A stretch of 64,000 nt of DNA from Planctomycetaceae bacterium (GTDB taxonomy: Bacteria; Planctomycetota; Planctomycetia; Pirellulales; UBA7805). The notes below the pieces were generated by a model. The model saw only the letters and a program-made list of their open reading frames with translations, did not search any database and was not told where the DNA came from. A program made the position numbers and the translations under genes. The stretch is from positions 1 to 64,000 of the forward strand of contig CACOUL010000009.1 of assembly GCA_902630355.1 (NCBI GenBank). The letters are read 5' to 3'. Shown here in pieces: positions 13,680-30,043 of the stretch (position 1 is its first letter; every line of letters begins with the position of its first letter).

Positions 13680-14390
13680 TTAGACCGTAAGTGGCAAAGG
13701 GTCGGCCAGAAACGCTTCGTAGGCTGCCCGCATTTGCACTTCATCCATCGAGGCGTCAGCCCATACCCCACATGCCCGCGCGCGGACAATGACTCCCTTT
13801 TCTAAAGAGCGGTCGAAGATGGGGCGTGTGAGGGAGAAGTCAGAATGTTCTCTCGACCACTCGACGCGCACCGAGAGAAAATCGCTCGGTTGAATCATCT
13901 CGATATAACTCAGTGGGCCGAAACGGATCAGCAGGCATCCCGTACTAACGCCCGGTGTGAGCGTGGTCGTGGATTCCACCCGCGCGAGCCCCTCGCTCTG
14001 GTGGTCCGGAAGATGGAAGATTTCACGGCACCCCGATCCGCGGGTGCATGTTGATAGTTGAGAGTGGGCATCGAGCGATGCGGTTTGCGCGGCAACAATA
14101 CACTCCAACTGATCGATTTCGCCGGTTTGCGACCGCTTCCAGTAGACTTGATGATCGAACGGTAGCATTCCCCTTTTTCCGTAATTGACCACGAGGTCTT
14201 CATTGCGGACATACGCCTCGATCGACTCCCCATCGGTGGCGAGGTGCGGCAATTCGAAGAGGCACAACGAGGGGCCCCCGGAGCGACGCCAGTCGAAGCC
14301 GTTTTCCGGTTGATTGAGGGCCAGCTTCCCGGTTCCACCACCCAAGGAGGTGGTCGCCTGCAGATCATTGAGTTGCCAGAGTGAAGTCAT
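13680..14390 (-). CDS. Hypothetical protein, predicted soluble beta-rich
   Basis: A 236-residue protein with no signal peptide or transmembrane segment. I do not recognise the family. Visible features are a PENGFDWRRSGGPSLCLFELP segment, a YVRNEDLVVNYGK segment, a cluster of Cys residues near the middle (CTRGSGC), and a C-terminal RACGVWADASMDEVQ stretch. Alternating hydrophobic residues suggest a beta-sandwich. Its stop is convergent with the membrane protein gene 21 bases away. Upstream lies a structured non-coding region, but an intrinsic terminator at 14525-14565 faces this gene, so it should have its own promoter between 14391 and about 14520. Confidence 0.65.
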   Translation of the reverse strand: MTSLWQLNDLQATTSLGGGTGKLALNQPENGFDWRRSGGPSLCLFELPHLATDGESIEAYVRNEDLVVNYGKRGMLPFDHQVYWKRSQTGEIDQLECIVAAQTASLDAHSQLSTCTRGSGCREIFHLPDHQSEGLARVESTTTLTPGVSTGCLLIRFGPLSYIEMIQPSDFLSVRVEWSREHSDFSLTRPIFDRSLEKGVIVRARACGVWADASMDEVQMRAAYEAFLADPLPLTV

Positions 14391-14820: not shown

Positions 14821-15618
14821 ATGGAAGTGTTGACCGAGATCGCGAGAGTGTGTGAGCAAGCGGCCCGACGTGGTGGTGCTGCGCTTCTTGATTGGTCGCA
14901 ACGTTTTACGATTCGTGAAAAGGGGCCGGCCGATTTGGTGACCGAGGCGGACCTTGCCGCCGAAGAGATTGTGCGCCAAACGATTGCCGATTCATTTCCC
15001 GATCATCAATTCGTGGGTGAAGAAACGACCCCCAGTGCCGCGGTGGAAGGGGTTTTGCGGGAGGCGACCGAGTGTGTTTGGATTGTCGATCCGCTTGACG
15101 GGACAACCAATTACGCGCACCGAGTTCCCCACTACGCCTGTTCGGTCGCAGTGGTCCGCGCCGGCGAGGTGCTTGCCGGCACGGTGTATCATCCTACCGC
15201 AGAGGAGTGTTACGTTGCCGTGCGACAGGGCGGTGCGTTTCTCAATGGAGAACCGCTTGCAGTGAGTCGCACACAATCGCTCGACGCGGCGCTGGTTGCC
15301 GCGAGTTTTCCCCCGAGGATCGACCGCAGCGGCACGGAGGTTCAGAAACTGCTCGGTGTGATCGAACGGGCCCAGGCGATTCGTCGAACAGGGTCGGCTG
15401 CGTTGAATATGTGTTACGTTGCATCGGGCCGTCTCGATGCGTACTGGGCGACCGGGACATCGGCCTGGGATATTGCCGCCGGTTTGCTACTGGTCCGCGA
15501 GGCCGGGGGCACGGTCACCGATTTGAGCGGGGGTCCTTTTTCGCTTTCTCAGCCACAGCCCCTGGCGTCGGGAACTGCCGAATTGAATCGCGAATTGGCC
15601 GCTATTCTGGGTTCCTAG
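14821..15618 (+). CDS. Inositol monophosphatase family protein (SuhB-like)
   Basis: A 265-residue protein of the inositol monophosphatase/FBPase/CysQ superfamily, at its normal length. The metal site is complete: GEET near residue 67, the WIVDPLDGTTNY signature near residue 90, and the C-terminal WDIAAGLLLVREAGG motif. It hydrolyses a phosphate monoester such as myo-inositol-1-phosphate, or a related sugar phosphate, with Mg in the cytoplasm. The exact substrate (inositol phosphate, histidinol phosphate or PAP) cannot be read by eye. It starts at ATG 14821 after an AT-rich non-coding stretch and appears to be monocistronic, with the next gene's promoter only about 60 bases beyond its stop. 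Confidence 0.9.
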   Translation: MEVLTEIARVCEQAARRGGAALLDWSQRFTIREKGPADLVTEADLAAEEIVRQTIADSFPDHQFVGEETTPSAAVEGVLREATECVWIVDPLDGTTNYAHRVPHYACSVAVVRAGEVLAGTVYHPTAEECYVAVRQGGAFLNGEPLAVSRTQSLDAALVAASFPPRIDRSGTEVQKLLGVIERAQAIRRTGSAALNMCYVASGRLDAYWATGTSAWDIAAGLLLVREAGGTVTDLSGGPFSLSQPQPLASGTAELNRELAAILGS

Positions 15619-15806: not shown

Positions 15807-18800
15807 GTGGCCGGTTGTTCCGTGCGATTCTGCCGAACGATTGAGTGTGACACCGTGTGGCGCCGTGTATCCAGATTGGATTTCCGATCCCCTCGCTCGA
15901 GATGCGCTTGGAGCGGATTTTTTACTTCGCTCAGTTGCACGCTCCTCTTCATCTCTACCCTGTGGATCTCTACGCTGTGGCCGCCCGCGCTGTTGGTCGC
16001 CGCGCCCCCCTCGCCCGCGACTCCCGACGCCACCAAACCGGTTGCGGTGAGTCCAGCGGAGATCGACCCTCAGGAGCGGCTAAGGCGTGAGGCACCTCGA
16101 GAAATCGGTCCGGAAATCTACTACATTCCGGATGCCCGAGGCCGTTTGCGGCCTGCGGTCCTCAACGAGTTGACGTTCGAGGAGTTTAAACGCCTTTTGG
16201 GCCGACGAGCGTCGCAACGCGGTCTGCCGCCCCAGTATGTGCTTACTGAACTCGATGTGACTGCCGATGCGGGCAACGATACGGCAGACTTGAAGATTTC
16301 AATCCGCATTTTGAATCGTGCCAGTGCGGATGATGCATGGGTTCCGATTCCGCTCAAGATGGGCTCCCTTATTTTTTCTCCGGATCGCCCGGCACTCTAC
16401 GAAGGGGAGGGAGACTTCTACATCAATTACGATACGGATCGGGAGGGCTATGTGATCTGGTTGCGTGGCGGGAAGGAACAGCCGCATCGCTTTACGCTGC
16501 AGGGCAAGGTCTTACTGCAGCGCGTCGGCAGCGAGAGGCAACTCAAGTTGCGTATTCCTCGCGCCACCCAATCGGCCTTCGAGCTACGGATACCACAGGC
16601 CGACCAGTCGGTTCGCCTGCTCTCCGGGGGTAGCATCGGGGAGGTGCAGGAGAGCGAGGGTGAGACCCGGGCCCGCCTGGAGGGCATCGCGGGTGAAATG
16701 CAATTGGCCTGGAGGCCTGCTTTGGTCCGCAACGCACCGCGGATGCAGGCGCTCGACGTGGCCGGTCGCCAAAGAATTGAGATGGATGGTGGACAGATCC
16801 GCACGGAAGCCGTTCTGCGGATCCAGAGTTTTGCCGGTCCGTTTGATCGCTTTCGCGTGAAGTTGCCACCGGAGTCGCGGTTGCTGAGAGAGAGCGCTGA
16901 GGGATACTCAATCCAGATCAATGAGCAAGAGGGTGACGCGGGCGAGAGTGGTTGGGTCGACGTAAAGCTGAATCAACGTACGAAAGGCCCGGTTGAGATT
17001 CGACTTGCATCTCAGCAGATACGGGATCTCTCTCGACCGGAGGAGACGACTGAATTGGCGGGATTCGATGTCGAGGGATCGATTCGGCAATCGGGACGAA
17101 TCGATGTGTTTGTCACCGGCGATTGGCAAGTGCGCTGGAGTAACGACGAGAATACTCGTTTTGATATTCGCCGTGTCGATGCCCCCTCCGATCTGCCGCT
17201 TACGTCAGATTGGGCAGCCAGTTTCGAATATTATCGGCAACCGTATTCGTTGAAGGCAGAAATTGAGCCACCCAATACCGAAGTGGCAGTCGAGCCCGAA
17301 TTGTATTTCGACATTGAGAAAGACCGAGTGGTACTCGATGCGAGATTTAAATACCAGATTCGTGGCGCGCGCGTTTTCGATCTCCATATCGATATGAAAG
17401 ACTGGAGCGTGCTTCCCGGTGGCATCGGCCCGGTTGAGCGTATCGATAGCAGTGGGCTGAGAGTCAATGACGATGGTCAGTTAACGATCCCTTTTCAGCG
17501 GTCGGTCGGGGGTGATTTCGAAATATCGGTGCGTGCAGAGAGAGCCCTTGCTTCAGATGCTGACGTATTAACTTTGCCACTGCCGCAACCTCAAGCGGAC
17601 CGCCTCGATGCTACCGTCGTGGCGATCAGTCCGGCTGACGATGTAGAGTTCATCCCGCGCGAGGGAGGACAATTGCAAGATCGCGTTCCATCGGGAGCCA
17701 AAGCAAGATTCGATGTCAGGCAACAGGAGCCCTTGTTTTATCTCTTCGAGCGGGGTGAAGAGGTACCCACGGCGATGACCGGTGATATTCGATTTCGGCA
17801 GCGTGAGATTAGTTCGCAAGTGAAAAGTCGCATTCGACTCTCCGCAAAAGAAATGGAAGTTGAACAAACGCTTCGATTTGATGTTCGATATCAGCGGATC
17901 GATTCGATTTCACTCCTGGTGCCGAAGGAATTGCTCGGCGAGGCTGATCTGATCCGCCGTGGGGGCAAATCGCTGCCGCTGTTGGTGGTGGATGAGGATC
18001 TGTCAGCTGAAGTTTCCCAGGTGCGTGTTCCGCTAGAGAATGCGATCGGTGAGGTGGTGCTCGACGTCGCCTATCGACGGGAGGCCGATGCATTGGAACC
18101 TGGCACCCTTTCGTCGATGACCACACCGCTTGTGATGCCCGCGGAGGGGACGCTCGAGGAGAATGAACTCTTGTTGGAGTCGGCCGAGGGAATGGAAATG
18201 GATTTGATCGGCGAAGCGTGGGAACCGGTCGATAGCTCGGATGGCGCGGTTGCGGGAGAGGTTGACTTTGAAGCCGCTCGCTATCGGATCGAAAAACCGA
18301 TGAGTGAAGTTGTGGTTCTCGCCGGCATGAGCGAAGACTCGCTCAGCCGACAAATTACGGTGCGGCGTGGTTTTTTGCAGACGTGGCTTACGCCGCAATC
18401 CCGATATGATCGTGTCACGCTGTTGCTGGACAACCGAGCGGCGTTTTTCGATTTCGAATTTCCGGAGGATGTTACCAGATCGGGGATCGGTGTCCGACTC
18501 GACCGAGAGCGAGCCGATGTCCGCTGGCTAAGTGGGCGTCGCTTGCGGATTGCGTTGCAGAGCCCGACATCCCACGTTTTGGAAATCGAATGGAAAACGC
18601 CTTCCCGTCCGATGGAAGATAACGCTTTTTTTGGACAGCGTGTTGGCTTGGCGATGCCCGCGTTACCGGACAGTGTGCAATTGCAGCGACCCCTCTACTG
18701 GCAAGTGGTACTTCCACAAATGCAACACCTGTTGGCGGGCCCTGCAGAGGCGGTGTCCTACAATGAGTGGCAGTGGCGGCGTGCCGGCTGGCGGCGGATA

Positions 18801-19376
18801 CCATTGGTCGGCGAACGGGAACTCGCTCAGTGGGCCGGTGCCGACGCGAGGCAAAACGATCTCCCCGGTAAATCGCGGTTAGCGACCGCAGGAATCAATC
18901 GCTACCTGTTCCGCCTTCCGGAGTGGCCGCAACAGTTATCGGTCCTGACAATTCCCCGGACCATGCTCGTTCTGATACCGGCAGGAATCGTATTGGCCGC
19001 CGGGATGGCCTGTATCTACATTCCCCGCCTTCGTCGCGGTAAGCTGGCATTTGCGTTGGCGATCGGTTTGTTGGCGGCGGGGCTGCTCTATCCCGAGCCC
19101 GCGGCAATGGTCATTCAGATGGGCTTGTTGGGTCTGGTGCTTACCTTGCTGGCCATCTTCTTACGGAAGATGCTCCGCGGTCGAGGAGTCGAACAGATTA
19201 TTATTGAGCGGACGAGTGGGTCGAGTCATCGTCAGCGGACGACCGAGTTGCATCACTACGAGATGGTGCCGCAAACGACTTCTTCGGTGACTCAGGTCAG
19301 CAGTGGGGAATCGTCTCTGCACGCGGGACCGCTGGAGGCACCGCTCGATGGATCGGTTGCGGAGCCCAAGTCATGA
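15807..19376 (+). CDS. Giant exported/membrane protein A of unknown function, paralogue of the next gene's units
   Basis: Up to 1189 residues. The start is uncertain: GTG codons at 15807, 15822 and 15855 are in frame and none has a clear ribosome-binding site. A hydrophobic segment (CTLLFISTLWISTLWPPALLVA) near residue 45 should act as a signal sequence. The next ~1000 residues are beta-rich and contain repeated sub-modules, approximately at nt 16340-16615, 16840-17150, 17366-17650, 17900-18205 and 18360-18740. Two or three transmembrane helices follow (nt ~18940-19175), then a Ser/Thr-rich tail. The stop overlaps the next gene in ATGA. The same succession of modules and terminal helices occurs in the next protein. 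I know no characterised homologue; a large envelope protein is inferred. Confidence 0.75.
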   Translation: MAGCSVRFCRTIECDTVWRRVSRLDFRSPRSRCAWSGFFTSLSCTLLFISTLWISTLWPPALLVAAPPSPATPDATKPVAVSPAEIDPQERLRREAPREIGPEIYYIPDARGRLRPAVLNELTFEEFKRLLGRRASQRGLPPQYVLTELDVTADAGNDTADLKISIRILNRASADDAWVPIPLKMGSLIFSPDRPALYEGEGDFYINYDTDREGYVIWLRGGKEQPHRFTLQGKVLLQRVGSERQLKLRIPRATQSAFELRIPQADQSVRLLSGGSIGEVQESEGETRARLEGIAGEMQLAWRPALVRNAPRMQALDVAGRQRIEMDGGQIRTEAVLRIQSFAGPFDRFRVKLPPESRLLRESAEGYSIQINEQEGDAGESGWVDVKLNQRTKGPVEIRLASQQIRDLSRPEETTELAGFDVEGSIRQSGRIDVFVTGDWQVRWSNDENTRFDIRRVDAPSDLPLTSDWAASFEYYRQPYSLKAEIEPPNTEVAVEPELYFDIEKDRVVLDARFKYQIRGARVFDLHIDMKDWSVLPGGIGPVERIDSSGLRVNDDGQLTIPFQRSVGGDFEISVRAERALASDADVLTLPLPQPQADRLDATVVAISPADDVEFIPREGGQLQDRVPSGAKARFDVRQQEPLFYLFERGEEVPTAMTGDIRFRQREISSQVKSRIRLSAKEMEVEQTLRFDVRYQRIDSISLLVPKELLGEADLIRRGGKSLPLLVVDEDLSAEVSQVRVPLENAIGEVVLDVAYRREADALEPGTLSSMTTPLVMPAEGTLEENELLLESAEGMEMDLIGEAWEPVDSSDGAVAGEVDFEAARYRIEKPMSEVVVLAGMSEDSLSRQITVRRGFLQTWLTPQSRYDRVTLLLDNRAAFFDFEFPEDVTRSGIGVRLDRERADVRWLSGRRLRIALQSPTSHVLEIEWKTPSRPMEDNAFFGQRVGLAMPALPDSVQLQRPLYWQVVLPQMQHLLAGPAEAVSYNEWQWRRAGWRRIPLVGERELAQWAGADARQNDLPGKSRLATAGINRYLFRLPEWPQQLSVLTIPRTMLVLIPAGIVLAAGMACIYIPRLRRGKLAFALAIGLLAAGLLYPEPAAMVIQMGLLGLVLTLLAIFLRKMLRGRGVEQIIIERTSGSSHRQRTTELHHYEMVPQTTSSVTQVSSGESSLHAGPLEAPLDGSVAEPKS

Positions 19377-22300
19377 TGAGCGTGTGCCGCATTCTTGTTG
19401 TACTCGGTCTTGCTCTCCTTGCAGCGATCCCGTCGGCGACTGTCGCGGAAGAGGCGGAGGGCAGGGGGATCACCTTTCGCAGGGTCTACGTTCCGGCCGA
19501 TCGGTTGAGCGAAGGGCCCTTCGGCAACCGAATATACAAGCCGATCGATGCCGCAGTATTTGAACGTTGGGCAACAGGGATCAAGGCGGGGGCGAAGCCA
19601 CCCCGGATTGGCGATGCCCTCTTCACTGCTGCTCTAGGTGATCAGAATCAATTGACGGGTGAGTTGGCGATGAAGATTGAATCGCCGGCAGGCGAACTTG
19701 CCGCGATGCCCCTGGAGCCTTGTAACCTCGCGCTCGGAGATCTGCAGTGGGAGCAGGAGGGGGAAAAAATTCCTGCCCGGATCGGAAGTGATCAGAGTGG
19801 ACGTCTTGTCCTTTTTATTCGTGGATCCGGAACGCTCCACGCCAATTGGTCGCTGCGCGGCAAACGAAATCGGGGTGGTCAGTTGCAATTCAACTTCGAG
19901 GTTCCCGCAAGCGGGACAAAGCAACTCCTTCTCGAATTGCCTCCCGGAACCGAACCCGACGTGAGGGGGGCCCTGATCGACGTGCCGCCGGTAACTGCCG
20001 ACTCAATGCGGCGATGGGAATTGCAGTTGAGCGGAGGGAGTCGCATTCCCCTTCAGATTTCCCGCAGTGTTTCCGATTCGGGCGAGAAGCGATTGGATTT
20101 GCTCACGCAATCGCGGTCTTACGATTTTCGCATCGATCGCATGCAACTCGATCAGGAATTGTCGTTGAGCGTGTACCGCAAGCCGATCAGGCGACTGTCG
20201 CTGGCGATCGATCCGGAGTTGCGGCTCGTTGAGGCGTTTGTGGGTGAGGAGCCCATTGAATGGCTCGAGCAATCTTCGGCCGATTCGGAGCAGCAAAAGG
20301 TGGTTCTCCTGTTCCCGGAACCGGTTGCGGGCAACGATCGGATCGTGCGGATTCGGGCGATTGCTTCACCGGTTTTTGATGCAATGTGGAGACTTCCGCG
20401 GGTCACTCTCGAGGATCTTTCCTGGCAAGAGGGCACCACGACGCTCCTTGTTTCGGCACCTCTCGTCACCGAGCGGCTGGAACTCTTCGGGTGTCAGCAA
20501 CTCCGGGCCGGGCGGGTTCCGGGCCGGGAAGGCGCAGAGGTTTTTGAACTACAGGACCATGGTCCGGATGCCGGCGCAGAGGTGGTTCTGGCACTTTCGT
20601 CAGGCGAGGGAACGGTTGATTGTGTGACCACGTATACGGTGCGGGAGGGGGCCATCGAAGGCCGTATGGTCTGCGATCTGAGTGTACGGGGTCCTCCGAA
20701 GTTTCAGATACGTGCCCGCGTTCCCGACGCATGGAATATCGAGTCGGTTGTGGCCGACGACTCGGGCGTACTAGCCGGATGGCGACAGGAGAGGGTGGCC
20801 GACGGCAACGTATGTATCCTTTCGCTTCGTCGCGGTATTTCCTCGGCGGCGCCTTTACGGTTTGAGATCACAGGAAGGCGAAGTCGCACCGGGGCACTGG
20901 AGTTGGCCGATTTGCAGATGCTGCAATTCGAAGGATTCCGCCGCAGGAGAGAACTTATCGAGTTTTCCGCGTCTGATCCCTATCGCGTTCGCGTCGACGA
21001 CCGCAACGCGGTCCCGCGACTCACCTTGGATCAGCTCGGGAGCGGGGACCGTGAAAGGGTCGAGGAGAATTTCTCCTTCAAAAAGCGAGATGCGGAGGAG
21101 GAGGGCCGATTGCCCGAGGATTTGGTTGCGGAAGATTCCGGCGAGGCAGTTTCCGGCGAAGCGGGGTCGCGCATCTGGTATGACACCTCCGACAATCAAT
21201 CGTTTTCGGTCCGACTGGAAAAACCGGTCCCCCGGTTTTCCGTAGAAACCCGGATTGAAGCCCAAGTAAGCAACCGGAATTTGAACGAACAGTGCGTGCT
21301 GGAGTGCACGCCTCAACAGAGCAGTATCGATTCGATGCAGGTCGTGTTCTCCCAGAAAAGGGACTCGCCGATTCGCTGTTCGGTAATCGACCACCAGGGT
21401 GTCGTTCTCGATGGAGTACGAGCGGTGAAGAGTGAGGTAAAAGAACGAACGGCGGGGGATACGCGGGAAAGATGGACTTTACGTTGGAACCGCCCTCTGA
21501 GTGCGAAGTTTCAGATTCTCATCGATCGGACGACTCGCTTGGATCAACAGATCGACATCGCTTTAGTGAGTCTGCCGGAGGCGGCAGAGCAGCGGGCCAC
21601 CGCCTCGGTCCTCGGAAGCCAAGGGAATCATATCGCGGTCGCAAATCAGAAATTGAAAGCACTTCCCGTCGAAGAGGGATCGGATTACGCGCGCAATCCG
21701 ATGCAGGCGCGTTTCCGCTACGATCCGGAGCGAGACGTGGATGGTGTCCGTGGCGGACGATTGTCCGTTGTCCGGCGATCGGCGACTGTCGGTTCTGCAC
21801 TCATCTGGCGGGCGATTGCCGAATCCTGGTTTACACCAGAAGGGCAGGGGACCCACAGAATGACCTACTACTTGGAAAACGAAGGTCAGGCATTCTTTAC
21901 GGCGTCGCTCGGTCAGGGCGAGCAATTTGAGAGTGCAGAAGTGGATGGTGTGCAGATTCGGATGCCACCGGTCGGTACGGACGTTCCGCTCGCAATTGCC
22001 TTGCCGGAGGACCAACGCTTTTCGGTTGTCGAGTTGCAGTGGAGTACGCCCGCCGTTACCGGTTATGTGCCTTGGATCCGTAAGGTCCCTTTGCCTTTGC
22101 CCGAGATCGATGTTCCCGTGATCGAGTGGACAAGAGTCGTACATGCGCCGCCCGGTTACGTGACGACCGATGGTTTGACGGGGGTGGGAGCAGATCGCGT
22201 CGGGTTGAGTTGGCAGCAGCGGTTGTTTGGGCCCCTTGCCCGACTCGAGTCGGCCCCTGTTTTCGATCCTTTTGATTCCGAGAGTTGGTCCGCGATTCCG

Positions 22301-25300
22301 CTGGTGACGCAAGATGCCAAGCGGCGGGTGACGAGACGTGCAGAAAAGTTTGTCACTAGGATGGGGATCGTTCTCTCGCAGAATCCGCAGACCGCCTCGT
22401 GGGGTGACCTCGCCCGGCTTGGTGAGTCGGTTTTGGGGGTTGATGACATCACGGGTGAGCGACTGTGGGTCGATGTCGATGCGCTTTCTGCTGTGGGAAT
22501 TGGCCCCGAGACTCCGATTGAAGTACATCAGGCACGAACCCCAGCAAGACTGGCAGCCGAAACGTTGCAAGCCGCAAATCTGGTACTCGCCGCGACGCGG
22601 CAAGGGTGGATTCTATCGACTGCTGCCGCGTTGCAATCGAGCGAATCGGACTGGTTGATTGAGGGAGTGGTTTGCCGGGTACCCGGTACTCGAACCGGTG
22701 ACACGAATTCGGCGTTGCCCTCTTCCGCCTTACCTCTCAAGCGATGGAGAGAGGAAAAGTCAGTGAGCGACTTTCCCTGGCAGCCGGTGTGGCGGGAAGG
22801 ATTTGATTTTGCTGAGCGGCAGGGTGGCTCCACCCTTTATCTGGACCGGTCGCAGACCAACCTTGCATCGGTTCAATTGGTCGACGTGCGATCGCTGCGA
22901 GGTTTGCAGTGGACCCTCTTTACGGTAGTGGCACTTGCGGGCTGCTTGTGGGGTCCTTTCGATTTAAGAAAAGGTTGTCTCGGTTTGTTGTGCCTGGCAG
23001 CCGCAGCCCTCATGTTGCCGGCAACGGTCGCGCCGCTGGCCACCGCGTCGTTTTGTGCTGCAGGTGTGGCTTTTCTCTTTCATCGTTTTGCGCCTTTCGC
23101 AGTCTTTTCCGCAGCAGCGCCCGACCAACGCCCGCATACGGCTCCAGAGGACGCGGTGACCAAGACGATGCGACTCTCCGGGTCGGAGATAAGTTTATTG
23201 TCTCTCGCAGGCATCCTTTTCTTCTCACAAATGGCATCGCACGCGGCGGACCCCTCGAAAGGTTCGGCTGTCGTAGTCATTCCGGTGGATAGTGAAAGTA
23301 AAAAGGGTGGTGACACGTACTATCTCTCCCCCGCTTTGTTCGAGGGGGTCTACGAGGAAAGGTTATCGTCGCCCTCGGTGATTGATTGGTTGCTCACCGG
23401 CGCTCACTACCGAATCGAGTTCGACTGGGAAGAGAATCAAAAGCGATTGGAAGTGGAGCAGTGTACCGCCTCGATACAAGTTGAAGTTGGGCTTCGCGAA
23501 ACGCGCGTGCTTATCCCGATCGCTTCGGAGGATGTCGAACTCGATCAGTGCCGGGTGACGATCGATGGAAAAGTTTATGACGGGATTGAAAGAACGCCTG
23601 AGGGCGCCTTTCTGATTTCGATCGACGAACCGGGTATTTATTTGGTTGAATTTTCTTTTCCGTTACGCGTTGTCGATACGGGAGGGTTGCGACAGGTCCG
23701 GGTTCCCATACCGGCATTGGCAACATCGACGTTAGAAGTCGACTTGCCCGTCGATGCCGTTCCACCTGAGGCCCTCTCAGCACAGGGGGCGACCCGGAGA
23801 GACGAAGTTCGGAATCGACTCCACGTTGACCTCGGAAATACCGATCAACTGGTACTGCAGTGGCGTGAAGGCGCGACTGCAGCAGAAGGCGATGCGGCGG
23901 ATGTGGATCAGTTGATCTGGATGAAAGTGCAACCCGGTGCGGTGGTGGTTGATGCCCGCTTGAAGATTGATTCACGGGATCGACGCAGTCAACGGATACA
24001 AATTGCGACCGACCCGCAACTTCGCCTGCTCTCGCCCCTGCGTGGTGAGGTCGACGGGCAGTCGGTTCCGATCAATCATGTTCGCACCGAACCGGGCGAT
24101 CCTCAGACGATTGAATTGCAGTGGGATAAGGCAGTCGATGGTGAGTTAGAAATCCGCTTACCATTTCTTTGGGCGGGTGTTTCGGGCATGGGGACGGTGC
24201 GTATTCCCCAGTTCGACGTGGTGGGCACTCGCGATTACCGGCGGTGGATTGCCGTTTCCGTCGATCCATCGCTCATCGTCGATCGGGATGCCGTCAGCGG
24301 CGACTCTTTGCTCAAACCGTTATCGATCGCCACGGCGGGAGAAACGTGGAATGTGGCAGGCCAGGCGCCCGACTTCTTTTATCAACAGACGGGAAGTCAG
24401 ACCGACTGGAGTTTGCCGACGCGACTCGAGGACTCCGAAACGGTCGCTTTTGCGAAGGTGGCTCTAGGTATCTCCGACAAGGTGACGGAGGTGGTCGCCG
24501 AATATGATCTTGAAACCACCGACGGACATCGCTGCCAGTATCATATCGATCTCCCCGATCACTTTCAGCCTGAGCGAGTCGAAGTCTTCTCCGAGGGAGT
24601 CGATCGAGTGCTGCGCTGGTCGACGCACGAAGAGTCGGGCGTGAATCAACTCACTCTTTTTCTCGCGGAAGCGGTCCGGGGAATCCAGCAGTTGGTCATC
24701 CACGGACATATGCCCCATTCTGCGGAAAGCCTGCGAGTTCCACGGTTCACAATGAAAGATGTGACGATGCGCGGCGGCCAGATTGCCATTTATCGCGGTC
24801 CTCGCGTTCAGGTCCGGCTGGAGGGAGAGAAGGTCAACTGGCAACGATTGGACGATCCGGTGCCGATGGCCCGGATTCCGAAGAACTTCGGTCGCGCGGT
24901 CGGAGTCTATGAGTTCCCTGTAGATACCTCGGCACCGCAGATTGCCATCGCGCCAAATCCGATCGACGCCGAGGCGATTCAAGTCGTTTCGCTCAACCGG
25001 ATCGACTCGAAATGGATCGTTGACGTCGATTTGAGAATCGAGGTAAAGCGTGGCAGACTCGACACGATCAGGTTACGGATTCCCGATGATTATGCGGGGC
25101 CTTTTCGTCTCGATCCACCTCTTCCCTTTACGATCAAGCCCTTGCCGGGAGGTGCCGGTTCGCTGCTCGAGGTGCATCCGAAAGATGCGATTACCGATGC
25201 GCTGCGATTCTCGCTTCGAGGTCCGCTCGATATCGCGCCGGAGGATCCTGTCCGCTGCCCCATCATCTCAACGCAGGACATCCCGAGGGTCTCCCGATTT

Positions 25301-26578
25301 GTGGTGATCCCGAAAAAGGTTGATTTGCAGGACGCCTCGTGGAAGACGGCGGGCCTGGTGCCACGACGCCTTCCCGAAGATTCAGAAAATGCACCGCTTG
25401 CGGGAACGTCGGTGACCTCGTTTCAGGTTACGGGCCGTGACTATCGCGCGGTCCTCGAGTCGGTGGGACAGCCGGCGCAGGAACCGGAAATTCCCCTGGC
25501 GACTGTAGATGTCGCAACCGGGCGAGTTGATCGGTATTTCGGTCGAGTTATTTTTCACTTGGTCCCGGCTGGGTTATCGCGGGTGCGGCTCTGCCTTCCT
25601 CACGACTCTGCAAAATTACTCCGCATCCGTGTGGATGATCGATCGACGACGATGGCGGAGCGTGACGGGTGTTGGGAAATCGAACTCCACTCCAGTAATC
25701 TGCTTCAGCGGATCGAGGTCCTCTATTCTGCTCCCTACAGCAAAAGAGGGAGAGGTATGCGGGGGGTATCGCAACCTTCACTTGCGGTGGATGGCGAAAA
25801 GATACCTGTGGACTCCACGCTCTGGTCGTTGGCCGGTGCCGATCGTTCCGGACGCTGGCATGCAAAGGGTTCACCCATCGATACGGAGAGTGCCGTGGCG
25901 CGCCAGTACGAGCATTTACATAAAAGGATGCGTACATCGCTCGATGTGTTGTCGGATGTCACGTCGGCCGAACCGGTTGAAGCCCTGCTTCCCTGGTATA
26001 ACCGCACGGTGAGGCACTTGGTATCGACTGAAGCCGAGATGGACTCGCTGGTGGCAAAGCTTCCGGCCTCGGTGCCAACAGCGGTCTCCGCCGAGTTTGC
26101 CGCACGAAGTGAGGTGCTAGCGGAGCAGGTGCGTGACCTTGCCGGCCGGTTAGTGACGCAAGGAGTTTTCCCCAAGGTGGAGGCATTTCGAGACGTGGGA
26201 CCGCTCGGTCCGGACCCTTGGCAGGGAATCTTTCCTCGTCCTCAGGCGTTGGCCGCTGAGGAGCCGCAGGGGACGCTCGCTGTTGAGCCGCCCGCAGGGC
26301 TCTCATCGACGCGATCTTTGCGTTGGTGGCTTGTGGCAATGGTACTGCTGGCAGCAGGTGTGATCGGCTTTTCTCCGGAGTGGGTCGACCGCTGGATGCA
26401 TTGCAGTGTCCCGTTGCTACCGCTGCTATTCGTAATCGCCATGTTTTATTGGTTGTTCTTGAGCCCCAGCATTCTTGGTTTTCTGGTGATGACTCTCATC
26501 GGGGTCACTGCTCTCGCGTGCGGTTGGAATCGCGCCGTGGTCGAAGTGCCACCGAGATCGCACCAAGGAAGCGAATAA
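19373..26578 (+). CDS. Giant exported/membrane protein B, two fused paralogous units
   Basis: A 2401-residue protein starting with a clean signal peptide (MMSVCRILVVLGLALLAAIPSATVA written in two parts: MMSVCRILVV and LGLALLAAIPSATVA). It consists of two halves. The first, to about residue 1260, ends in several hydrophobic helices (nt ~22890-23130). The second opens with what looks like another signal peptide (MRLSGSEISLLSLAGILFF, nt 23168) and ends in three or four helices (nt ~26310-26530). Candidate beta-rich repeats lie near nt 19715-19965, 20185-20500, 20690-21000, 21810-22165, 23500-23760, 23980-24290, 24525-24830, 25058-25330 and 25580-25860. No catalytic motif is seen. Start overlap with protein A argues for co-translation and joint function. 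Confidence 0.8.
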   Translation: MMSVCRILVVLGLALLAAIPSATVAEEAEGRGITFRRVYVPADRLSEGPFGNRIYKPIDAAVFERWATGIKAGAKPPRIGDALFTAALGDQNQLTGELAMKIESPAGELAAMPLEPCNLALGDLQWEQEGEKIPARIGSDQSGRLVLFIRGSGTLHANWSLRGKRNRGGQLQFNFEVPASGTKQLLLELPPGTEPDVRGALIDVPPVTADSMRRWELQLSGGSRIPLQISRSVSDSGEKRLDLLTQSRSYDFRIDRMQLDQELSLSVYRKPIRRLSLAIDPELRLVEAFVGEEPIEWLEQSSADSEQQKVVLLFPEPVAGNDRIVRIRAIASPVFDAMWRLPRVTLEDLSWQEGTTTLLVSAPLVTERLELFGCQQLRAGRVPGREGAEVFELQDHGPDAGAEVVLALSSGEGTVDCVTTYTVREGAIEGRMVCDLSVRGPPKFQIRARVPDAWNIESVVADDSGVLAGWRQERVADGNVCILSLRRGISSAAPLRFEITGRRSRTGALELADLQMLQFEGFRRRRELIEFSASDPYRVRVDDRNAVPRLTLDQLGSGDRERVEENFSFKKRDAEEEGRLPEDLVAEDSGEAVSGEAGSRIWYDTSDNQSFSVRLEKPVPRFSVETRIEAQVSNRNLNEQCVLECTPQQSSIDSMQVVFSQKRDSPIRCSVIDHQGVVLDGVRAVKSEVKERTAGDTRERWTLRWNRPLSAKFQILIDRTTRLDQQIDIALVSLPEAAEQRATASVLGSQGNHIAVANQKLKALPVEEGSDYARNPMQARFRYDPERDVDGVRGGRLSVVRRSATVGSALIWRAIAESWFTPEGQGTHRMTYYLENEGQAFFTASLGQGEQFESAEVDGVQIRMPPVGTDVPLAIALPEDQRFSVVELQWSTPAVTGYVPWIRKVPLPLPEIDVPVIEWTRVVHAPPGYVTTDGLTGVGADRVGLSWQQRLFGPLARLESAPVFDPFDSESWSAIPLVTQDAKRRVTRRAEKFVTRMGIVLSQNPQTASWGDLARLGESVLGVDDITGERLWVDVDALSAVGIGPETPIEVHQARTPARLAAETLQAANLVLAATRQGWILSTAAALQSSESDWLIEGVVCRVPGTRTGDTNSALPSSALPLKRWREEKSVSDFPWQPVWREGFDFAERQGGSTLYLDRSQTNLASVQLVDVRSLRGLQWTLFTVVALAGCLWGPFDLRKGCLGLLCLAAAALMLPATVAPLATASFCAAGVAFLFHRFAPFAVFSAAAPDQRPHTAPEDAVTKTMRLSGSEISLLSLAGILFFSQMASHAADPSKGSAVVVIPVDSESKKGGDTYYLSPALFEGVYEERLSSPSVIDWLLTGAHYRIEFDWEENQKRLEVEQCTASIQVEVGLRETRVLIPIASEDVELDQCRVTIDGKVYDGIERTPEGAFLISIDEPGIYLVEFSFPLRVVDTGGLRQVRVPIPALATSTLEVDLPVDAVPPEALSAQGATRRDEVRNRLHVDLGNTDQLVLQWREGATAAEGDAADVDQLIWMKVQPGAVVVDARLKIDSRDRRSQRIQIATDPQLRLLSPLRGEVDGQSVPINHVRTEPGDPQTIELQWDKAVDGELEIRLPFLWAGVSGMGTVRIPQFDVVGTRDYRRWIAVSVDPSLIVDRDAVSGDSLLKPLSIATAGETWNVAGQAPDFFYQQTGSQTDWSLPTRLEDSETVAFAKVALGISDKVTEVVAEYDLETTDGHRCQYHIDLPDHFQPERVEVFSEGVDRVLRWSTHEESGVNQLTLFLAEAVRGIQQLVIHGHMPHSAESLRVPRFTMKDVTMRGGQIAIYRGPRVQVRLEGEKVNWQRLDDPVPMARIPKNFGRAVGVYEFPVDTSAPQIAIAPNPIDAEAIQVVSLNRIDSKWIVDVDLRIEVKRGRLDTIRLRIPDDYAGPFRLDPPLPFTIKPLPGGAGSLLEVHPKDAITDALRFSLRGPLDIAPEDPVRCPIISTQDIPRVSRFVVIPKKVDLQDASWKTAGLVPRRLPEDSENAPLAGTSVTSFQVTGRDYRAVLESVGQPAQEPEIPLATVDVATGRVDRYFGRVIFHLVPAGLSRVRLCLPHDSAKLLRIRVDDRSTTMAERDGCWEIELHSSNLLQRIEVLYSAPYSKRGRGMRGVSQPSLAVDGEKIPVDSTLWSLAGADRSGRWHAKGSPIDTESAVARQYEHLHKRMRTSLDVLSDVTSAEPVEALLPWYNRTVRHLVSTEAEMDSLVAKLPASVPTAVSAEFAARSEVLAEQVRDLAGRLVTQGVFPKVEAFRDVGPLGPDPWQGIFPRPQALAAEEPQGTLAVEPPAGLSSTRSLRWWLVAMVLLAAGVIGFSPEWVDRWMHCSVPLLPLLFVIAMFYWLFLSPSILGFLVMTLIGVTALACGWNRAVVEVPPRSHQGSE

Positions 26579-27406: not shown

Positions 27407-28162
27407 TTGATTCTGTTGATCCTTGCGGCAGGTATGGTCGTCTTTCTCTCGATCTGCTTCATTCGCAGTCCGTATAACGTGCCCCAAACGATCGTTGCCT
27501 GGATCAATCTCTGTCTCACCCGAATCCTGTGGCGGGTCGAGGTGGAGGGACATATTCCGGCGAGTGACGGTGTCGGCGGAGTATTGATTTGCAATCACCG
27601 TGGTTCGGTCGATCCCTTTTTCGTTCAGTTGGTTGCAGGTCGGATCGTTCACTGGTTTGTTGCGAGAGAGTACTTCAAGTTTCCGGTGGTCGGGAGCTTC
27701 TTGCGTATCAGCGAGAGCATTCCTACCAATCGTGCCGGAATCGATACCGCGTCGACCAAGGCTGCGATCCGCATGGCGCGTCAAGGAGATTGGATCGGCA
27801 TGCTTCCGGAGGGTCGAATCAATCGAACCGAAAAAATTTTGCTGCCGGGTCGCCCCGGGGCGGCGCTCATTGCCTTGAAGGCACAGGTTCCCGTGGTGCC
27901 TTGCTATCTCGAGGGCGTGCCGTACGACGGCACGTTCTGGGGTTGTCTCTTCATGGCGGGACGGGTGAAGTTAACGATTGGCAAGCCGATCGATCTTTCG
28001 CCTTATTATGGCAGAGATCGCGATCATCAGGTATTGGGGGAGTTGACGCTGCTGTTCCTCAAGCGGATTGCCGAGTTGGGAGGGCGGCCCGATTTTCAAC
28101 CGCAGTTGGCAGGTCGTCGTTGGTCGCCGATTACCGAAAAAGAGGACGCCGCGTCATCCTGA
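27407..28162 (+). CDS. plsC: 1-acyl-sn-glycerol-3-phosphate acyltransferase (PlsC family)
   Basis: A protein of about 251 residues with an N-terminal membrane helix (LILAAGMVVFLSICF) and the acyltransferase motifs NHRGSVDP (the H-x4-D catalytic pair), PTNRAG, PEGRINR and VPVVPCYLEG. It transfers an acyl group to lysophosphatidic acid in phospholipid synthesis at the inner membrane. The start is unusual. No ATG or GTG lies between the upstream in-frame stop (27320-27322) and TTG 27407, while the ribosome-binding site GAGGAAGGA at 27374-27382 is rather far away. ATG 27434 is an alternative that shortens the helix. The 3' end overlaps the convergent ATP-grasp gene by 67 bases. Confidence 0.87.
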   Translation: MILLILAAGMVVFLSICFIRSPYNVPQTIVAWINLCLTRILWRVEVEGHIPASDGVGGVLICNHRGSVDPFFVQLVAGRIVHWFVAREYFKFPVVGSFLRISESIPTNRAGIDTASTKAAIRMARQGDWIGMLPEGRINRTEKILLPGRPGAALIALKAQVPVVPCYLEGVPYDGTFWGCLFMAGRVKLTIGKPIDLSPYYGRDRDHQVLGELTLLFLKRIAELGGRPDFQPQLAGRRWSPITEKEDAASS

Positions 28163-29289
28163 GTCTTCGTGAGCAGTCGCGAAGCGAAGCGTTTGGCAGC
28201 TGCATGTAAGTTTGCGCCGAGGTGTTCGCGTTGCGTCGAGCGAGCAAGGAGCGTGGCAACCGGATGGGTCTTGGCAATCGGCGTCAGTGGTGGCGGAATG
28301 TCGGCGAGTCGGATTTCAACCGATTGCGACTGATCTGAGAAACAAAAGTCGGCAAGACCGTGCGGGAAGACGAGATCCTCCGGTGCAAAGTATACCGCTT
28401 TTGCGAAATGTTGATGCGGCTCATCGAGCGAGATGGTTTCGATCGGTTCTCCGCGGCAGGCACGCACATGTTGCCTCACGATCTGTGTATCGCACGCAAG
28501 ATCAACGATCTCCGCCGAAGCGGTGAAGCGAGGGTTGACCTCCACGGGTCGGATAACGTCGCCTTGCACCACTGCGTCCACTCCGAACAGGCCGCGCAGT
28601 GAAAAATGTCGAGCCAGCGCGCAGCCGATCGCCTCCCATTCTGCTCGAAGGCGGCATTCGAGTTTGAGCGGGCCGAGCGACCCGGCGTAACCGAAGGTGC
28701 GGGCGTTAAGCCACGGAGTGCCGATCCATTGTTCGGTGACGGCTACGAGACTCGAGTTGCCACCGTGTGCCAAAAACAGACCGCTCTGCGAGTGCCCCTC
28801 AATAAACTCCTGGTAATAGTTTTCGTTCCCCGTGCTCGGGTCTGTCTGCTCAAAAAGACGAATCCCCAACCCGCCGCTGCCGCGCAGTCGTTTGATGAGC
28901 CAGGGTGACGCTGGCGACCGCGGGGGCGTTCTGCGAGTCTCGACGCCCGCCAGTCCAGCGCACACAAGCGCCCGCTGCACTTCCAACGGATCACGAACAC
29001 GGCGGACCACCGCGAGTGGGCACCCGTAAACGGGCCGCGATGCGGCGAGTTGGGCAACGATCTGCGGATGATTTTCCATGCCGCCTGCGAGAAGGACCGG
29101 TGCATCAGGCAAATCTGCGGCGACTTGAGCGATCGATTCCGGAAAGCGAGGACAGGTCCGCACCGTTGCAACTCGGCAGAGATCGATGTCGCCGAATTGG
29201 TCGATGGCAAAGGGATGAAAGCCGGAACGTACGGCCGCCTCGGCTGCGGCCCGGGCACTGGCCCCGACAATAAGTAGCGGTTCCTGCAT
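28096..29289 (-). CDS. ATP-grasp domain protein, probably linked to tetrahydromethanopterin metabolism
   Basis: A 397-residue ATP-grasp protein. The N-terminal pre-ATP domain starts LLIVGASARAAAEAAVRSG. The ATP-binding lobe has LIKRLRGSGGLGIRLF, followed by YYQEFIEG, and the metal/catalytic strand VIRPVEVNPRFTASAEI. Such enzymes join a carboxylate to an amine or thiol using ATP. ATG 29289 has GAGAGGA eight bases upstream. It is divergent from fae across a 256-base gap, and methylotroph H4MPT clusters include an ATP-grasp gene (orfY), so a role in pterin cofactor synthesis or C1 metabolism is inferred. Its last 67 bases overlap the convergent plsC. Confidence 0.82.
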   Translation of the reverse strand: MQEPLLIVGASARAAAEAAVRSGFHPFAIDQFGDIDLCRVATVRTCPRFPESIAQVAADLPDAPVLLAGGMENHPQIVAQLAASRPVYGCPLAVVRRVRDPLEVQRALVCAGLAGVETRRTPPRSPASPWLIKRLRGSGGLGIRLFEQTDPSTGNENYYQEFIEGHSQSGLFLAHGGNSSLVAVTEQWIGTPWLNARTFGYAGSLGPLKLECRLRAEWEAIGCALARHFSLRGLFGVDAVVQGDVIRPVEVNPRFTASAEIVDLACDTQIVRQHVRACRGEPIETISLDEPHQHFAKAVYFAPEDLVFPHGLADFCFSDQSQSVEIRLADIPPPLTPIAKTHPVATLLARSTQREHLGANLHAAAKRFASRLLTKTQDDAASSFSVIGDQRRPANCG

Positions 29290-29545
29290 GTTCGGGTCCT
29301 CTCGACGGGGCGAGGGAATGCAACGCATCCCCTCCGAATCCTTTTAGAGACTCTATGCGACAGCGTCTTGCAAATCAAACTGACTCTGGTATCGTTTCGG
29401 GTCCTGTGTTGCGGTCCCGCCCCGATGGAGCGGTGGGAGGCTGCGACCACCGGATGGCCTGCTGTCTGCGTGAGATTGATTGAGAACAGGGCCGTTCGGC
29501 TGAAAAATCATCAACAGCCATTTTATTTTTTCAGGAGTACACACC

Positions 29546-30043
29546 ATGTCGATGTTTGTAGGTGAATCTCTCAAGGGCGATGGCAATGAAATTGCCCATA
29601 TTGATCTTTTGATCGGGAGAAAAGATGGTCCCGTAGGCGTTGCCTTTGCCAATGCACTGGCCCGTCAGAGTGAAGGACATAGCAATTTGTTGGCCGTGCT
29701 CACCCCGAACCTGGCGGTCAAGCCCTCCACGGTGATGATCACCAAGGTAACGATCAAGGGATCGAAACAGGCGGTGCAGATGTTCGGTCCGGCCCAGGCA
29801 GCCGTTGCCAATGCCGTTGCCGATTCGGTCGCCGAAGGTGTGATTCCCAAGGACCAGGCCGAACAACTTTGTATCGTCTGCGGCGTCTTCATCCACTGGT
29901 TGGCTGAGGATGACAAAAAGATTTACGACTATAATTACGAGGCGACCAAAGAGTCGATCGCCAATGCCATGGCGGGTGAGCCCTCGGCAGACGCGATGCT
30001 CGCGGGCAAAGACGCTGCAGAGCATCCGTTCCGCGGATTCTAG
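29546..30043 (+). CDS. fae: Formaldehyde-activating enzyme (Fae)
   Basis: A 165-residue protein of normal length for Fae, which condenses formaldehyde with tetrahydromethanopterin to methylene-H4MPT in the cytoplasm. Diagnostic stretches are VGESLKGDGNEIAHIDLLIG, with the catalytic His at residue 18 (His17 in the Methylorubrum enzyme), then PVGVAFANALARQSEGH, LLAVLTPNLAVKPSTVM, and a central QMFGPAQAAVANAVADSV. The ATG is preceded by CAGGAG. Two hairpins follow the stop. Fae indicates H4MPT-dependent formaldehyde oxidation or detoxification, known to occur in planctomycetes; other genes of the pathway are not in this window. Confidence 0.96.
   Translation: MSMFVGESLKGDGNEIAHIDLLIGRKDGPVGVAFANALARQSEGHSNLLAVLTPNLAVKPSTVMITKVTIKGSKQAVQMFGPAQAAVANAVADSVAEGVIPKDQAEQLCIVCGVFIHWLAEDDKKIYDYNYEATKESIANAMAGEPSADAMLAGKDAAEHPFRGF

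Follow-up and report, generated by a model that had tools for sequence, protein, structure and literature searches.

A planctomycete gene pair encoding three membrane-anchored units of predicted M1-N-like saddle domains, probably structural parts of the cell envelope

Two adjacent genes, A and B, located in the window (the whole analysed stretch of 64,000 nucleotides, from a contig of a 2.56-Mb draft genome that is ~70% complete), encode three homologous, membrane-anchored units of five domains each, and the repeated domain was assigned a fold like that of the N-terminal saddle domain of M1 aminopeptidases by a predicted structure and two sequence-profile tests. The anatomy of the pair is well supported; from it we infer the function, namely that the proteins probably serve a structural purpose in the planctomycete cell envelope, as components that have so far been undescribed. 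The closest named contig (97% identical) belongs to a metagenome bin of Pirellulales, which makes the source of the window a planctomycete of this order.

Two giant overlapping genes had been reported at 15807-26578 in an earlier note on this DNA, and both ORFs are indeed found there, on the forward strand, the end of gene A and the start of gene B sharing 4 nt (ATGA). Gene A (15807..19376, 1189 aa; its GTG start is that of the longest ORF and the true start may be further in) begins with an N-terminal helix or export signal, followed by the signature of unit A (16107..16196, EIYYIPDARGRLRP...FEEFKRLL), by domains A1-A5 (16194..18761, aa 130-985), predicted to be M1-N-like beta-saddle repeats, by three transmembrane helices (18966..19163, aa 1054-1119) and by a C-terminal tail rich in Ser and Thr. 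Gene B (19373..26578, 2401 aa) carries a signal peptide and two units in succession. Unit B comprises the signature RRVYVPADR...FERW (19472..19570), domains B1-B5 (19595..22207, aa 75-945) and ~3 closing transmembrane helices (22895..23080, aa 1175-1236). Unit C opens with an internal signal-peptide-like helix (23177..23245, aa 1269-1291), which is followed by the signature VVVIPVDSESKKGGDTYYLSPALFEG (23261..23356), domains C1-C5 (23375..25867, aa 1335-2165) and again ~3 helices (26315..26527, aa 2315-2385). Every unit thus has the same layout, i.e. an export signal with a short signature, five domains and ~3 hydrophobic helices at the end. The signature follows approximately the pattern hydrophobic-Y-hydrophobic-P ... 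F-E-x-L, which is clear in B and C and weaker in A, where it matches as a regular expression only 6 of the 39 sequences.

The homology of the units was assessed with profiles of orthologues collected across the order (40 for A, 39 for B). Profile-profile alignment (hhalign) matched A 122-979 to B 58-935 (E-value 2e-35, score 338), A 101-971 to B 1298-2157 (E-value 5e-32, score 303), and the first half of B to the second (34-927 vs 1297-2157, E-value 7e-38, score 363), with ~815 columns in each alignment, as compared to a top score of 52 for control profiles that were reversed, block-shuffled or column-shuffled. The earlier note, which inferred "at least three" paralogous, membrane-ended units and would have abandoned them if a profile of one repeat missed the others, was therefore right in substance: there are exactly three (A and the two halves of B, the second being unit C), with five domains apiece and hydrophobic helices closing each. 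The stretches it had paired by eye, in the same order, are also aligned in our profile-profile alignments: FLQTWLTPQSRYDR with IAESWFTPEGQGTHR, VLEIEWKTPSRP with VVELQWSTPAVT, the thrice-recurring earlier module FDVEGSIRQSGRIDVFV with the stretch of B at ~20400 and with FDVVGTRDYRRWIAVSV, and, between domains B3 and C3, FQIRARVPDAWNIESVV with CQYHIDLPDHFQPERVEV. Inside every unit we found a period of ~175 aa (e.g. A 109-762 vs 283-935, score 145), which delimits the five domains. In the all-against-all comparison of the 15 domains, domains 2-4 of every unit are mutually alike; domain 1 matches domain 1 across units and domain 5 likewise, forming two groups that are separate from domains 2-4 and related to each other. 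In the phylogenetic tree the units form three monophyletic clades within the order (support 1.0, 0.997 and 0.863), and the three units diverged before the radiation of the order.

For the fold prediction, one repeat (R) was modelled with AlphaFold2 from the nine R domains of the window and five from a near-identical contig. The model (pLDDT 67, pTM 0.67) is all-beta with very long strands, and the top 50 Foldseek matches to it in the PDB are all M1 metallopeptidases (best E-value 1.4e-6, query TM ~0.5-0.57), the matched region being the N-terminal saddle domain. For a domain of another type, modelled with C1 as query (pLDDT 73), M1 N-domains rank high but weakly (best M1 E-value ~0.01). Both models are of single domains and of moderate confidence, from alignments of 9-14 sequences. 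Two sequence-profile tests point to the same fold. A profile of 178 repeats aligned in register with Peptidase_M1_N from planctomycete M1 genes (positions 13-112 vs 12-110, score 31; controls 13-18), and, when 177,635 distinct PDB sequences were scanned with a profile of 60 repeats, 18 sequences matched up to E-value 10, all of them leukotriene A4 hydrolase (N-terminal domain, residues ~21-143 depending on the construct, E-value 3.5e-4).

The thin alignments and moderate pLDDT of the models would fit a reading in which the M1-like fold is an artefact and the true fold a beta sandwich of a different kind, as would the single-domain scores to M1_N, mostly at control level, and the lack of any match in A or B to the Pfam model of the M1 N-domain (PF17900). 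We regard this as highly improbable, as the separate PDB-wide search retrieved solely leukotriene A4 hydrolase N-domains, in a register that agrees with the Peptidase_M1_N alignment and in the very domain found by Foldseek. With protein B as query, no PDB chain was matched significantly. The earlier note knew of no described family with this design, and this stands for the architecture, as members from several lineages belong to no Pfam or NCBIfam family and none was found in the literature searched; the fold of the domain itself, the M1-aminopeptidase N-terminal saddle, is known and had been missed. Weak Pfam and NCBIfam labels (PIN_9, HILPDA, DUF5693, TgpA_N, VpsF and others) were taken as chance or membrane-helix matches.

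The survey of planctomycete genomes that the earlier note had suggested showed that most genomes within the order carry the pair, which also occurs in several further lineages of planctomycetes. Orthologues of gene A are present in 52 and those of gene B in 50 of the 58 genomes surveyed in the order; no copy was detected with two different queries in five good-quality genomes, which implies that the system is dispensable. Gene A was matched in 75 of 119 genomes of the class sample, and in the phylum sample A of the window matches 22 of 149 genomes and A of genome G128 53 of 149, all these being single-sequence searches, which undercount. No match was found among plasmid records. In other lineages, the 20 loci fetched all have A and B side by side, as do almost all fetched loci overall, and a start permitting the 4-nt overlap is found in 21 of 39. 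Genomes of one family (f21) hold two pairs, with B of ~2200-2400 aa in one and ~2690-2860 aa in the other; within the order this second pair type occurs in 7 of 58 genomes (E-value below 1e-100). A second paralogous pair with A of ~1130-1205 aa and B of ~2680-2860 aa is encoded in genome G005 (L084:2987-14444), and also at L144, L142, L148 and L150, all within the phylum; in f21 genomes it accompanies a pair of the window type.

The helix that precedes unit C in protein B, the fourth after the three that close unit B, resembles a retained signal peptide and is followed by an A-x-A-like site in several orthologues. This suggests that gene B arose by fusion of two genes resembling A, a reading which predicts that unfused genes exist elsewhere. 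Such genes were found in G118, which contains three separate genes in the order A-B-C (1128, 1237 and 1138 aa), each scoring best with its own unit profile (246, 194 and 217 bits), and in G068, which also carries three separate unit genes; G083 has the same layout, as judged by eye. Thus, both fused and unfused B-C states exist in different planctomycete lineages. In the unit tree the G118 and G068 genes cluster together beside clade A, outside the unit clades, which renders their one-to-one orthology less certain, their unit identity being based on HMM scores and gene order. In G128 (L153:1597-16157) we found three consecutive unit genes (1138, 2401 and 1286 aa) with apparently four units. 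Gene B of G003 (L082:7944-15180) is broken into ORFs of 413 and 2021 aa, for which a frameshift or an assembly error is the probable cause. A 3500-aa A-B fusion suggested by the class search proved to be a stop-to-stop frame, and the locus has separate genes (1147 and 2339 aa).

The HEXXH and GxMEN motifs are absent from both proteins, and no Pfam peptidase domain, including the thermolysin-like catalytic domain, was detected in 40 members of A or in B. The 89 columns of A that are at least 80% identical within the order comprise P, L, W, G, R, Y, A, V, Q and F, and none of them is D, E, H, K, C, S, T or N; protein B has 94 such columns, which consist mainly of P, W, G and L, plus a few R, D, A and Y. 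The lack of conserved residues of catalytic type favours a structural or binding role and, together with the layout of export signals and membrane anchors, a scaffold. A and B-C are probably parts of one complex, since the two genes adjoin each other, frequently with an overlap, and since many lineages have B and C fused in one chain. We propose, with a probability of roughly 0.45, that A and B constitute a heteromeric, inner-membrane-anchored, extracytoplasmic scaffold or tether without enzymatic activity, with three paralogous subunits A, B and C, of which B and C are fused. Each unit would be exported to the periplasm, where its beta-saddle domains would form a chain that the C-terminal helix bundle tethers to the membrane. 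Equal numbers of A and B-C would make up the assembly, which could brace or bridge the envelope, or serve as a docking platform, rather than act as a catalyst. The earlier note had considered an envelope scaffold or a trafficking machine; nothing in our analysis points to vesicle trafficking.

The same layout, with an export signal, a large ectodomain, helices and a cytoplasmic-looking Ser/Thr-rich tail in A, could also belong to a receptor or sensor, whose ectodomains would bind ligands or partner cells and signal via the helix bundle and the tail; we find this quite improbable, as Pfam reveals no signalling domain in the chain and neither a kinase nor a regulator is consistently encoded beside the pair.

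Directly upstream of gene A, the window contains a gene of the inositol-monophosphatase family (14821..15618, forward strand; PF00459). This family recurs at 19 of the 40 pair loci of the order, and in other taxonomic families of the class one pair type is likewise preceded by it. Genes for GNAT, PlsC-type acyltransferase and ATP-grasp proteins are located downstream of the pair in several genomes. The recurring neighbours point to an old gene neighbourhood without pointing to a function, and there is no envelope-specific clue among the neighbour genes. A 236-aa protein with no Pfam match is encoded on the reverse strand at 13680-14390, and its family occurs near the pair in 18 of the 40 loci of the order. 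At 28096-30043 an ATP-grasp_3 gene adjoins a gene for formaldehyde-activating enzyme (Fae), cf. tetrahydromethanopterin-linked C1 metabolism.

Sporadic neighbours outside the window bear on the possibility that the proteins are part of an export or assembly machine, in which the repeats would bind clients crossing the periplasm and pass them to an efflux or secretion apparatus. In G005 a set of HlyD, ABC ATPase and MacB/FtsX genes lies upstream of a second-type pair, an outer-membrane efflux gene adjoins pairs in G105/G126 and G068, and a sub-threshold T2SSB-like protein comes next after the unit genes of G128. However, in the loci read no such neighbour is shared between families; they are missing from most of the second-type loci examined and altogether from the pair type of the window, which renders the export machine unlikely. 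A link to MacAB-TolC-type efflux in particular, suggested by G005 and G105, was rejected, as it is missing around further second-type pairs among the stretches listed.

The PlsC-type acyltransferase near the pair in the window would suit a conduit that carries lipids or other hydrophobic molecules between two membranes along concave beta sheets, functionally like the AsmA/TamB-type bridges, and so would the long beta strands, the saddle-shaped sheets repeated many times and the inner-membrane anchor. This too we consider very improbable: Pfam searches retrieved neither AsmA nor TamB nor any other lipid-transfer family, and, as far as the single-domain models go, the domains are predicted to be discrete ~175-aa folds without a continuous groove.

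Returning to the scaffold, planctomycetes possess unusual envelopes whose periplasm is enlarged, and little is known of the components that give these envelopes their shape. It is conceivable, albeit on balance doubtful, that the pair represents an undescribed envelope machine, in which 15 protease-like saddle domains without catalytic function, carried by three subunits and anchored in the membrane, would brace, bridge or mould this enlarged periplasm; B-C might be cut at the internal signal to yield three separate subunits.

Among known systems, the closest are the M1 metallopeptidases, such as aminopeptidase N and leukotriene A4 hydrolase, with which the repeats of the window share the predicted fold and the strand register. 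In contrast to these enzymes, the window proteins have up to 15 tandem copies of the domain, with membrane anchors after every fifth, and they lack the catalytic domain, HEXXH and GxMEN, as well as similarity detectable with the Pfam model. The M1 N-domain is familiar as an accessory domain of proteases; here it is predicted to be reiterated as a module. TAF2, an M1-like TFIID subunit devoid of catalytic activity, exemplifies the use of the M1 framework as a non-enzymatic scaffold. Unlike the window proteins, TAF2 is eukaryotic and nuclear, and has a single M1 layout without repeats or membrane helices. The CAGE proteins, common in Planctomycetota and Verrucomicrobiota, are described as cage formers of ~2300 aa, in which Ig/alpha-2-macroglobulin-like domains are mixed with helical domains and which form homotetramers (PMC12485934). 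By that description they resemble protein B in length and in being exported planctomycete proteins with many beta domains, but they are non-repeated soluble chains, set apart from the three repeated units, the M1-N-like domains and the transmembrane helices of the window proteins. The planctomycete membrane-coat-like proteins are described as large proposed membrane shapers composed of beta-propellers and stacked alpha-helical repeats (PMC2799638), whereas the two domain types modelled here, each as a single domain, are predicted to be all-beta and M1-N-like, and are accompanied by membrane helices. The architecture is undescribed in the literature searched, mostly as judged from titles, abstracts and short passages. 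The pair is, in summary, a known fold in an undescribed architecture, absent from Pfam and NCBIfam, whose system-level role may be that of a scaffold, and a conserved, clearly delimited gene pair of planctomycetes can now be assigned a predicted fold.
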